This document shows positions 29,658 through 34,677 of a DNA stretch of 64,000 nucleotides, in pieces. Numbering within the stretch: position 1 is the stretch's first letter; each line of letters begins with the position of its first letter. The DNA is from a virus, in the IMG/VR virus record IMGVR_UViG_3300045125_000040, positions 1-64,000 of that record. One strand, written 5' to 3'. The position numbers and the translations under genes were made by a program. The notes under the pieces were generated by a model that did not search any database, was not told the origin of the DNA, and saw only the letters and a list, made by a program, of their open reading frames with translations.

Positions 29658-30789
29658 ATGGCTCGTCGCCCAATAGTTGCCAGAAAACAGAAAACAGTCC
29701 GTATAACCAAGACCGAACAATATCTGGTCAATAAAAAATACTTGGGCGACGAACCATACTTTACTACGCCTTTATCCAAGACAGACTACATAAATAGTCT
29801 TAACTGGTATGGGTATATGTGTACAGTCAATGATGCACGTGAATATATACTTGAATATTTGATAAAAGTCAAACGTGAAAAAGATGTCAAAAAAATCAAA
29901 GCATTATCAGATAGTGAAATTCCCACAACTCTTGCGTGGATTTCACGTATGCTTACACGGGATTTTGTCTTACCTGTAGAAGCAAAAGAATACCTTGACC
30001 ATAGACTAAAAGAAATTACCAAGAGTTATAAAGAACCAATAAATAATACAAAAGAAGAACCAAAGATCTCAGTAAGAGATCGTATGAAAGAAAGGTTCCA
30101 TGATATAATGGGCGAAATAGAGGGACTTATTGATGATTATATGAATGAGAACCAAGAGTTTTCATTATATAATTGGTTACAAAGCAATAATATTCCCGCC
30201 GCATATGCTACTTCAATTATCAATAAGCTAACTCCAGTATTAGATGAATTAAAGGAAGCATACAATACCAAAGACGAACAGCTTAAAGAAGCTTATAGAA
30301 ATTATTCAAAACCAAAATTAAAAACTCTTATTGACTTTTATCAAAATCTATGTGATGATGTATCCAAGTATTCTGGTGTGGTCAAGAAAACCCGTAAAGA
30401 CCAGAAAGCCAAGGACTGTTTCTGTTGAGAAAAAGATTAAAAATCTTAAATGGCAAAAAGAAGACTCAACTTTCAAGATTGCATCGGTTGATCCTTCTAA
30501 GATTGTCGGAGCACAAGAATTATGGACCTTTAATACGAAATACAAAACTCTCACGGTCCTCCGTGCGTTGGATCGTGCAGGGCTTCAGGTTAAAGGAACG
30601 TCGATTACTAACTATGATGAAAACAATTCTTTCACAAAAGGAACAGGGCGCAGAACTGAAGAATACGTCAAAAGAGTACTTGATGGTGGGAAGATTATTC
30701 TCCGCAAGATTATGGACGATATCAAAACAGATAAACCGCTGGCATACAGAATTAACGAAAACACAATACTTTTACGGACGATCAGTTAG
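29658..30789 (+). CDS. Conserved T4-superfamily hypothetical protein (about 377 aa)
   Basis: Intact to residue 250: MARRPIVARKQKTVRITKTE, NSLNWYGYMCTVNDAREYIL, SEIPTTLAWISRMLTRDFVL, YNWLQSNNIPAAYATSIINK. After a shift near 30405: KKIKNLKWQKEDSTFKIASV, GAQELWTFNTKYKTLTVLRA, GTSITNYDENNSFTKGTGRR. It resembles a large hypothetical protein of marine T4-like phages. Basic; function unknown. Confidence 0.65.
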
Positions 30790-31375
30790 AGAGAATTAAT
30801 TCTCTCTTTCTTCTCTTGGTTTCTTTTATTTTGGTTTTGGTTTCTTCAGAATGTTTTTTGCCTTTGAATGGTCCATTGCCTTTACGTAATTTTGCTTTTT
30901 CGCTTAGTTTTCTTTTATGTTCTTCTGATTTTGGAACGCCTTTTAATTTTTCACTAATTTTATTATTTCTATGATCAGAAAATATATATCCAGTCATTTT
31001 TTCGCTTATTGCTTTTTTATGTTCTTCAGATATAATTTTGCCTTTATGTGTTTTACTAATTTTAGCTTTTATGTCATCCGTGTATTCTATGCATTTACAA
31101 ATGTTTTTGTTCAACCATTTTTCGTTATATAATATTTTCATTCTTTTTAAGACTTTTATTTCCCATTCTATAGCTTTTTCTTTTCTATTAAATTTTTTTC
31201 TAATTTTTATTATATCAGGTTCACCATGTATTTTTCTGAAATTTTTAACGTGTCTAGAAGAAGTAAAATACTTGACCCAAAGATCATTTTCTGCTATAAT
31301 TTTATTTGCGTAACGAACTCCATAATACCACTTGTTTAATTTTGACCAACCTATGAGATAAGTATATGATTCCAT
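30782..31375 (-). CDS. Homing-endonuclease-like protein with NUMOD3 motifs (197 aa)
   Basis: Intact. N-terminus YTYLIGWSKLNKWYYGVRYA is a GIY-YIG-like pair (LIG...YYG) with a downstream Arg; then KNFRKIHGEPDIIKIRKKF. The C-terminal half has at least three NUMOD3-type DNA-binding segments (SEEHKKAISEKM, SEEHKRKLSEKAKL, SEETKTKIKETKRR). Antisense to its neighbours and inserted between accessory genes, as a mobile gene would be. The intact frame contrasts with broken flanks. Confidence 0.7.
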   Translation of the reverse strand: MESYTYLIGWSKLNKWYYGVRYANKIIAENDLWVKYFTSSRHVKNFRKIHGEPDIIKIRKKFNRKEKAIEWEIKVLKRMKILYNEKWLNKNICKCIEYTDDIKAKISKTHKGKIISEEHKKAISEKMTGYIFSDHRNNKISEKLKGVPKSEEHKRKLSEKAKLRKGNGPFKGKKHSEETKTKIKETKRRKRELILSN

Positions 31376-32552: not shown

Positions 32553-32847
32553 TTGAAGACTTTGAAAATACTCTTGACAAGTAGTCTGTTATTTGCTAAT
32601 ATAGCACATAGCTTCGGATGATATCACATGTGAAAAGGATGTCAAGAAGGATCACATTGTTCACTGTAAGACAAAGAAGGTGATGGATGTTTCGCTGGTT
32701 AGCATTAATGGTGGTGAGTGTAACGCTCCTTCATTTCACTGGCATGGTGAAGGTAAGTTCGCCTTACCAGGAACAAAAGACTGCTCTTATGTTGGTGCAG
32801 TAACATTATCAGTTGACGGACATACAAAAACATTTGCTCCGTTATGA
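32553..32847 (+). CDS. Exported Cys-rich protein (about 97 aa), TTG start
   Basis: LKTLKILLTSSLLFANIAH signal, then across a shift SDDITCEKDVKKDHIVHC, INGGECNAPSFHWHGEGKFA and KDCSYVGAVTLSVDGHTKT. Four Cys in the mature part. GGAGCCGCTAGA before the TTG. Confidence 0.6.
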
Positions 32848-32987
32848 GTAAAGTTCGCCTTCATCACGGTAACATCTGTCTTGGGTTTGGTATCCAGATT
32901 AAAGATGCCGTATTGAGTTACGGTTCGAATAACCATTAGTTGAAAGACTATAAAACAGGTGTTACTTTGATGAAGGCGAATAAATAG
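32844..32987 (+). CDS. Small protein with an in-frame amber codon (47 codons)
   Basis: MSKVRLHHGNICLGFGIQIK, ending YGSNNH, then TAG at 32937-32939, then LKDYKTGVTLMKANK and a final TAG, all in one frame. The ATG overlaps the previous stop. A substitution error, or a true stop with a conserved-looking extension. It ends at the start of the tmRNA acceptor piece. Confidence 0.45.
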
Positions 32988-33276
32988 AATTGCCGAGGTC
33001 GTTGAGAGGAACGACATAGACACTGAGGACGTGGATTTGCGACTCCACCGCCTCCACCACAGTAACATTGGTTCCAAGGTTGGAATAAACTTGGGTAATA
33101 GCTTCTCCAAACGTCCAGTGTTACTTTGATGGGGGCGAACTAGGATCGACTGGTGTAGTAAGGGTTCAAGGAGACCATAGGCAAATATAGGTGCTAACGA
33201 TAACTTTGCACCATTTGATTACGCTCTAGCAGCATAATCATTGGGGTGGCGACTTCCCTAGAAACAGAAAAGTCGC
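32988..33276 (+). ncRNA. ssrA: Circularly permuted two-piece tmRNA (ssrA)
   Basis: The acceptor piece comes first: stem GTCGTT/AACGAC, T-arm region GTGGA...TCCAC, then CGCCTCC-A-CCA ending at 33059. About 70 nt later the coding piece begins at 33131 with GGGGGCGAACTAGGATCGAC, the conserved alphaproteobacterial 5' end. GGGGGCG pairs with CGCCTCC over 7 bp, and the third pair is G-U, the identity element for alanyl-tRNA synthetase. The tag reading frame follows: ANDNFAPFDYALAA then TAA, ending in LAA like other proteolysis tags. The coding piece closes with the stem GCGACTT/AAGTCGC at about 33276. The T-loop looks one base long (8 nt), possibly an indel. It would rescue stalled ribosomes and mark products for ClpXP-type proteases. 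The exact 5' end of the acceptor piece is approximate. Confidence 0.88.
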
Positions 33277-33302
33277 AAATATTATGAAAGGATATACCAT
33301 GC

Positions 33303-33898
33303 ATGAATTTGTTTGACTTTTCTAATGATGTAAGATATAATAAGAACATAAAACAAATTAATAATTTCTACACATCAAGAGTAAAGAAGTTAAACTGTTT
33401 TTATGAAGAACATGGTGAAGGTCAGACCAGAAAAGAAACAGGTAATCTTTTCAGGATCTATTTTATTATATTTCAGAAACTATCAATCCAAATCTAGTCT
33501 TAAAAAAGAATGATTTTTTAACTGTTCCTAGTAAAAGTGGTAGATATAATCTAATAAATGTTCAAGTTGATTGGCATGTTTATTTTAATAACAAATTATT
33601 GTTTGTTTGTGAATGTAAAGCACATTTAGACAGATGTTATTTGTCACGTGCAGTCTCTGATATAAATGATATCAGAAAAGTGCATCCAAATGTGCCAGCT
33701 ATAATTTTCTGTGGACAGAGACATATATCAGAGGATTCTTTGAATTATTATAAAGAAGAATGTGATTTTGAATATTTTTTTGTTAATGAAGATAAAAAAA
33801 GATCATCTAAAACACCTTTATATAAAACATGCAATGCTTTAGATAATCATGAAATTCAAAGAGTTTGTGAACATATTAACTTTTTGTTATCTGGATAG
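33303..33898 (+). CDS. PD-(D/E)xK nuclease-like protein (about 198 aa)
   Basis: MNLFDFSNDVRYNKNIKQIN, EEHGEGQTRKETGNLF, then across a shift near 33450 DLFYYISETINPNLVLKKND. The core is VQVDWHVYFNNKLLFVCECK: Asp, a beta hairpin, then ECK, the D...ExK metal-binding pair of restriction-type nucleases. Later PNVPAIIFCGQRHISED and NHEIQRVCEHINFLLSG. It ends exactly where tRNA-Arg begins. A phage nuclease, solitary restriction enzyme or free-standing homing nuclease are all possible; no partner methylase adjoins. Confidence 0.6.
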
Positions 33899-33971
33899 GT
33901 TCCGTAGCTCAACAGGACAGAGCAACCGCCTTCTAAGCGGTAGGTTGTTGGTTCGAATCCAACCGGGATCA
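33898..33971 (+). tRNA. tRNA-Arg, anticodon TCT
   Basis: Acceptor GGTTCCG/CGGGATC (two wobble pairs), D-arm GCTCAACAGGACAGAGC, anticodon stem ACCGC/GCGGT around CTTCTAA, T-arm GTTGG/CCAAC. CCA is not encoded. Reads AGA, a codon frequent in this A+T-rich phage. Confidence 0.9.
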
Positions 33972-34041: not shown

Positions 34042-34677
34042 ATGTATTATATAGTTTATAAAATAACAAATTTAATTAATGAAAAATATTATATAGGATG
34101 TCATCAAACTGACAACCTAGATGATGGATATTTTGGTTCTGGTGTTTATCTTAAAAGAGCTATAAATAAATACGGAGTTGATAATTTTCATAAAGAAATT
34201 TTATTTTTCTGTCAAAATGAAGAAGAAATGTTTTAAAAGAAAGTGAGTTAGTTGTTGTCTCAAGTAAAACTTATAATTTAAAAGAAGGTGGACGAGGCGG
34301 CTTCGGATATATCAACAAAAACAAATTAAATAATGGCAGAAGATCCAGAAGAAACAGAAAAAAGAAGATTAAAAAATCTTTCAAAATATAGAAAACAAAA
34401 ATGTAAAGAAAAAGATGAATTAGAATTTATGAGAAATATTGCTGAGATAGGAAGAAAAACTATTTCTGAAAAATATCCTAATGGAACATGGAAAAACAAA
34501 AAACACTCAGAAGAAACGAAAATAAAAATTGGTGAAATAAGTAAGATACGTCAATTAGGTACAAATAATTCACAATATGGAACGTGTTGGATTACTAATG
34601 GTGAAATAAACAAAAAAATAAAAAAAGAATGTCTTGATATTTGGATTGAAAAAGGTTATTATAGAGGAAGAATATAG
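34042..34677 (+). CDS. GIY-YIG homing endonuclease (SegA-like)
   Basis: Begins MYYIVYKITNLINEKYYIG, the GIY-YIG pair, then CHQTDNLDDGYFGSG with the catalytic-loop GYFGSG typical of phage Seg proteins, and INKYGVDNFHKEIL. After shifts: SELVVVSSKTYNLKEGG and RGGFGY; the C-terminus has a NUMOD3-like segment KKHSEETKIKIGEISKIRQ and ends YYRGRI. It would cut DNA of competing phages and spread its own gene. Two indels. Confidence 0.8.

Follow-up and report, generated by a model that had tools for sequence, protein, structure and literature searches.

Is the short region at positions 32988-33276 of this viral DNA, in which an earlier reading of the sequence alone had seen a circularly permuted two-piece tmRNA that is carried by a phage and has its own tag, a genuine gene, and would it work for the phage? 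The DNA analysed, hereafter the window, is a stretch of 64,000 nucleotides. We found that the region 32990-33276 (+ strand) is a real circularly permuted two-piece tmRNA of the alphaproteobacterial type. A cmscan search of the whole window revealed a match to the Rfam family tmRNA_permuted (RF04321) at 32997-33237 (+), with a score of 78.5 bits against a cut-off of 47 and an E-value of 2.3e-13. An overlapping match to alpha_tmRNA (RF01849), the model that the sequence-only reading had proposed for such a search, was found at 32936-33279 (+), with a score of 72.8 bits against a cut-off of 50 and an E-value of 7e-18. Both matches were recovered again when a sub-region was scanned. ARAGORN, run on the window, did not call a tmRNA at 32990-33276; as it missed a true gene, its silence was not considered to be evidence. 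The elements of the locus are as follows.

32553-32844, + strand: upstream gene of unknown function, 104 aa in the related contig L004 and frameshift-broken in the window; it seems to travel with the tmRNA
32846-32979, + strand: hairpin insert of 134 nt, with arms at 32854-32882 and 32952-32980, between the promoter and the upstream gene
32979-32986, + strand: position of the T4-type late promoter, reading AATAAATA in the window, one mismatch to TATAAATA
32990-33059, + strand: acceptor (tRNA-like 3') piece, ending CGCCTCCACCA, placed by cmscan, covariation and a T-arm survey, with a predicted exact mature 5' end
32997-33000, 33009-33012 and 33020-33024, + strand: P2 strands of the acceptor piece (GGTC, GAAC and ACACT, respectively)
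33031-33048, + strand: T-arm, GTGGATTTGCGACTCCAC, malformed in the window
33049-33055, + strand: acceptor strand CGCCTCC, followed by ACCA at 33056-33059
33060-33130, + strand: spacer, a 71-nt hairpin (CAGTAACATTGG...CCAGTGTTACTTTGAT) continuing the acceptor stem, defined by repeats, fold and spacer comparison
33131-33276, + strand: coding (mRNA-like) piece, opening with GGGGGCGAACTAGGATCGAC at 33131
33131-33137, + strand: acceptor strand GGGGGCG of the coding piece
33152-33156, 33164-33167 and 33173-33176, + strand: P2 partners in the coding piece (GGTGT, GTTC and GACC, respectively), followed by a 16-nt linker without PK1
33187-33190, + strand: AUAG tetramer, 2 bases 5' of the resume codon, a known frame-setting element
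33193, + strand: resume codon GCT (alanine)
33193-33234, + strand: tag frame ANDNFAPFDYALAA, with the stop codon TAA at 33235-33237, defined by the sequence and by tag conservation in relatives
33243-33276, + strand: 3' pseudoknot past the tag, formed by GGG/CCC and by GCGACTT (33249-33255) with AAGTCGC (33270-33276), with both-side changes at most pairs

The acceptor half lies 5' of the coding half (33049-33059 before 33131), as the sequence-only reading had described, and the boundaries given there were right to 1-2 bases. The two halves pair through an acceptor stem of 7 bp whose third pair is G-U (G3-U70), the alanine identity element, and the open frame encodes the tag followed by a stop; both features had been recognized correctly. 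For the analysis of covariation, 15 distinct mature sequences of the window's tmRNA family were taken from viral contigs and aligned as two pieces, and the acceptor helix, the T helix, three parts of P2 and the two stems of the 3' pseudoknot were scored. We found that 496 of the 521 helix cells were paired (95.2%), compared with 37-52% when one side was slid by 1-3 columns, a control that is biased in favour of the structure because the structure was derived from one of the aligned sequences. Changes on both sides of a pair, which are free of that bias, were observed in the acceptor, T, P2 and 3' pseudoknot helices; for example, the fourth pair of the acceptor stem is G4-C in one of L321 and L322 and C4-G in the other. 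The G3-U70 pair was invariant in all 15 distinct relatives. Nearly all of the viral tags start with ANDN or ANEN and finish with -AA, and an LAA ending was present in 92 of the 107 tags scored. With both Rfam models above their cut-offs and helices that covary, the central claim of a phage-borne permuted tmRNA with its own tag is borne out, and neither of the outcomes that the sequence-only reading had named as refuting it occurred.

The pseudoknot PK1 upstream of the tag is usual in tmRNA and is not a defining part of RF04321. In the RF01849 alignment, 17+4 model positions over PK1 were deleted in the window, where only 16 nt separate the last P2 base (33176) from the resume codon. The resume codon lay 62 nt from the first base of the coding piece in the window and in most of its family. 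This offset was 78-88 nt for the majority of the remaining viral copies and 80-123 nt for the bacterial genome loci with a readable tag (approximately 100), none of which was shortened and none of which carried a PK1-less tmRNA. A scan for short linkers returned 30 viral contigs, among them several forms of 47-65 nt that differ in sequence. Across 385 alphaproteobacterial genomes, a short-gap pattern gave only matches that were unlike tmRNA as judged by eye, and a long-gap pattern matched 244 genomes, some of them by chance. Within the sampled sets, PK1-less copies were seen solely in viral contigs, and the AUAG resume signal was retained in the PK1-less tmRNA of the window. On these comparisons, the viral lineage of the window has lost PK1. 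The description of this RNA as host-type was thus correct for the alphaproteobacterial order of the two pieces and failed for PK1, which is lost here yet kept by every scorable bacterial relative sampled. On a gp32 tree, the loss needs at least two changes and a single origin is not supported; exchange of the tmRNA cassette between phages, described below, accounts for these changes as well as independent loss does.

As reported in PMC4236655, AUAG or AUAA before the resume codon favours correct resumption, and work cited there found that PK1 of Escherichia coli tmRNA is replaceable by single-stranded RNA, with tagging in vivo still efficient. Helices 3 and 4 are found in most tmRNAs, with two exceptions that lack helix 4 (PMC1168896). 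Our literature search, of incomplete coverage, found no naturally occurring phage tmRNA described as lacking PK1. Nearly every tmRNA described so far has PK1, although experiments found it to be replaceable, and a naturally PK1-less lineage with a selected tag and a selected tRNA-like part makes its purpose directly testable.

The T-arm of the window cannot adopt the 5-7-5 form and is the sole exception among 115 distinct viral copies; the form is perfect in the other 114, the PK1-less ones included. We also found that six of the eight proteins compared with their intact counterparts in the syntenic contig L004 are broken across reading frames in the window, and that gp32 of the window switches frame at codons 77/78. 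Because the contig is so rich in frameshifts, the malformed T-arm was read as a sequence error, and the defect is probably an indel error in an error-rich contig. If the defect is biological, this copy of the tmRNA is dead or dying. Together with the absent PK1 and the hairpin insertions that adjoin the gene, the malformed T-arm could indicate a decaying tmRNA that is losing its parts and is kept only as a hot spot for recombination or repeats. We consider such decay unlikely, as the T-arm is intact in all other copies, the indels extend to the coding genes of the same contig, and the tags, G3-U70, P2 and the 3' pseudoknot are under purifying selection with compensatory changes in the PK1-less copies themselves.

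The phage origin of the RNA and its loss of a structural element would also suit a dominant-negative or decoy tmRNA, which would occupy SmpB or stalled ribosomes and block trans-translation in the host. A precedent is the TLD-only tmRNA of mycobacteriophage DS6A, which is proposed to inhibit the host tmRNA (PMC4131195) and is likewise a reduced phage tmRNA. However, the DS6A RNA is without a tag frame, whereas the window keeps a conserved one, and nearly all viral copies keep the reading frame, the LAA end, the stop codon and the AUAG signal, all of which are needless for a decoy. We regard this explanation as quite improbable.

Among 111 distinct viral loci, the T4 late promoter motif TATAAATA was exact in 67 and had at most one mismatch in 98. 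Its positions fell in a cluster 74-80 nt upstream of the CCA end, immediately ahead of the acceptor piece; the expectation from shuffled sequences was 1.3 viral loci, and the motif occurred in 2 of 88 bacterial loci. The single mismatch in the window is attributed to the hairpin insert, which abuts the promoter, and the loci L004 and L062, both without the insert, have the exact motif. The T4-like phage Melnitz also carries TATAAATA just 5' of its tmRNA. Its authors inferred an early promoter and early expression for the tmRNA (PMC9004378), whereas a late promoter motif in a constant position ahead of the gene argues for late expression. Judged by this motif, the phage tmRNA is apparently turned on in late infection. 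The sequence-only reading had supposed that the RNA might keep translation and protein turnover running at that stage; the timing gains support from the fixed late promoter in related phages, and the benefit to translation is one that we infer. The promoter thereby gives a timed prediction in place of a vague help to translation, in conflict with the published early view for Melnitz.

The record from which the window was taken is that of a T4-like phage. It comprises 158,790 bases and may be a fragment. The tmRNA lies 3.6 kb upstream of gp32, which matched PHROG 224 and Pfam PF08804 and whose nearest named relatives are cyanophage gp32 proteins with at most 56% identity; other nearby genes encode a baseplate wedge, a baseplate hub, a tail tube, a tail fibre and a tape-measure protein. 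The complete permuted ssrA is present in this T4-like genome and not at an integration site, and a host or prophage origin of the tmRNA was rejected on account of the T4-like genes and the late promoter. No recognizable SmpB was found in the phage record, so host SmpB would be needed.

The relatives were gathered by pattern searches of IMG/VR, and a blastn search of 32800-33300 against named phages gave no match. The 104-aa upstream gene was 90-99% identical among phages whose gp32 proteins were 53-70% identical, and near-identical tmRNAs fell in separate branches of the gp32 tree. Near-identical copies of the tmRNA and its upstream gene in phages with diverged gp32 suggest that the two seem to move between phages as a cassette. 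It is highly improbable that the tmRNA is merely a host gene that was captured and plays no viral role, such as one carried over from an ssrA integration site, which is a common site in hosts (discussed in PMC9004378). The virus is T4-like, the gene occupies a constant position downstream of a phage late promoter in a great many phages, PK1-less copies were restricted to viral contigs in the sampled sets, and the tmRNA and its upstream gene are near-identical across phages with diverged gp32.

Several other elements were observed near the tmRNA. A tRNA-Arg (UCU) is located at 33898-33971, 620 nt downstream, and the ORF between the two (33599-33898) belongs to PHROG 10849, of unknown function. 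The region is flanked by a homing-endonuclease-like ORF (NUMOD3, PHROG 314) at 30782-31375 (-) and by a 37-nt match to the SegH gene of Salmonella phage KM16 at 34044-34080. Among the 88 loci taken as bacterial, at least two MAG contigs, L213 (Rhodobacteraceae) and L222 ('Euryarchaeota'), have tmRNA sequences of the phage type and are probably phage contigs that were binned with cells.

The architecture, pairing, tag, lack of PK1 and promoter motif, as established from sequence and covariation, make it quite probable in our judgement that this is a working two-piece tmRNA of a T4-like phage, transcribed late, PK1-less, processed by the host, charged with alanine and tagging with host SmpB. Transcription from the T4-type late promoter, immediately ahead of the acceptor piece, would yield a single precursor. 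This would fold into a long hairpin whose base brings together the CCA end and the beginning of the coding piece, and host tRNA-processing enzymes could excise the spacer from it. The 7-bp acceptor stem and helix P2 would then hold the two pieces together, and alanine would be charged via G3-U70. Host SmpB would carry the RNA to ribosomes stalled late in infection, where translation would resume from the AUAG signal after the 16-nt linker, without PK1. The tag ANDNFAPFDYALAA would be added to the product, and its ALAA end would send the product to host proteases. The phage may benefit late in infection, when broken mRNAs would accumulate.

Permuted phage tmRNAs were described in 2022, when the Melnitz tmRNA was reported together with 53 two-piece candidates from phage genomes (PMC9004378), and a tmRNA database holds 79 phage sequences of all forms (PMC11915505). 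The kind is therefore not new, and the novelty that the sequence-only reading had hoped for a permuted phage tmRNA falls to this earlier work. What is new here is the PK1-less lineage, the late promoter at a fixed place and the junction-like hairpins. The Melnitz ssrA (MZ577097) is the closest comparison described: it is a permuted alphaproteobacterial-type tmRNA in a T4-like marine phage, scores 113.4 bits with RF04321, and shares the promoter motif and an ANDN...ALAA tag. In contrast to the window, it keeps a PK1-like sequence, is followed on its 3' side by a glutamine riboswitch and has a spacer with a small ORF. No such riboswitch was found in the window 3' of the tmRNA; it is a feature of some Melnitz-type members and is not required. 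Pelagibacter phage HTVC008M, Ruegeria phage V10, Rhodobacter phages RcXuper and RcSimone-Hastad and Sinorhizobium phage Phosso also have permuted tmRNAs by score, which are unannotated in their records. Unlike the window, these have a stretch between the pairing regions that is long enough for PK1, and no loss of PK1 was seen among them.

The alphaproteobacterial two-piece tmRNA (RF01849; Caulobacter type) shares the piece order, the acceptor stem, P2, the alanine resume codon, the ANDN tag start and the 3' pseudoknot with the window; the bacterial copies differ in having PK1 (offset of 80-123 nt), shorter spacers and no TATAAATA. The engineered E. coli tmRNAs with a replaced PK1, as described in PMC4236655, similarly run from P2 to the resume codon without a PK1; they were made in the laboratory, whereas the loss in the window is natural and inherited in a viral lineage. 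Additionally, in Ruegeria phage V10 (L340), a GOLLD RNA at 45-478 lies directly upstream of the permuted tmRNA at 649-1040, and the tmRNA of the 469-kb phage Phosso (L342) has a 410-nt spacer (733-1142) in which no long ORF was seen.

The spacer of the window, which contains no ORF worth naming, is hypervariable between near-identical relatives. Copies that are near-identical in both pieces have unrelated spacers, which indicates wholesale spacer exchange, and L094 and L308 have a common spacer core despite different linkers. The viral spacers are longer than the bacterial ones. The 134-nt insert upstream folds as one long hairpin (z-score of -9.1). Its arms are CGCCTTCATCA-y-GGTAACAT and GTGTTACTTTGATGAAGGCG, and they match the acceptor-plus-spacer arms of the tmRNA itself. 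The insert is missing with a clean join in L004 and L062, and other relatives have 1-3 hairpin copies: two units are present in L094 and L161 and three in L095, with arms that change in step. No Rfam family matched the hairpin. A genome-wide mobile repeat was considered and rejected, as only the spacer arm of the tmRNA resembles the insert, and every occurrence of the paired motif in the viral collection was beside this tmRNA. The hairpin insert probably arose by tandem duplication of the tmRNA junction.

In other phages, the spacers contain small genes. A 38-aa protein family (MKNPLVREVSKWMLRAYILWSICADIALLSGIIYLVFF) is encoded in tmRNA spacers of approximately 159 nt (L038, L058, L066, L068, L086, L097, L104, L113, L016, L023 and L049), with a pN/pS of 0.149 over nine distinct sequences and third positions that are the most variable; the protein is probably membrane-bound. 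The Melnitz spacer (L337, MZ577097) encodes a protein, MFKWLSKTRLVVITRDYFRERNRKADAKIPKYLSG..., of which 25 of 36 residues are identical to the counterpart in L026/L042, again with third positions the most variable; this ORF is unannotated and lies inside the annotated ssrA feature. Eight spacer proteins had no match in PHROGs, and two of these eight, also searched against Pfam, had none there. Conserved, unannotated small genes in the spacers of phage two-piece tmRNAs, those of a cultured phage included, bear on every annotation of this gene.

We tentatively suggest, as a possibility that we hold to be rather doubtful, that water-borne T4-like phages have a virus-specialised class of tmRNA. 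Such a class would be transcribed late, PK1-less in some lineages and carried as a cassette with the upstream gene. Its spacer would serve as a site of cargo and exchange (for small protein genes, an entire tRNA and hairpins that are copied upstream), and precursor processing would couple maturation of the rescue RNA to the expression of small viral genes.

Further unrelated small spacer ORFs with plausible ribosome-binding sites were observed in L060, L107, L309, L314/L317, L036, L043/L318, L065, L045 and L037/L072/L101, and several of these stop at the tmRNA's own UGA or UAG. The Melnitz spacer ORF starts with MFKWLSKTRLVVIT. The spacer of L102 contains a complete tRNA-Arg (UCU), and those of L313/L180 contain T-arm-like pieces.
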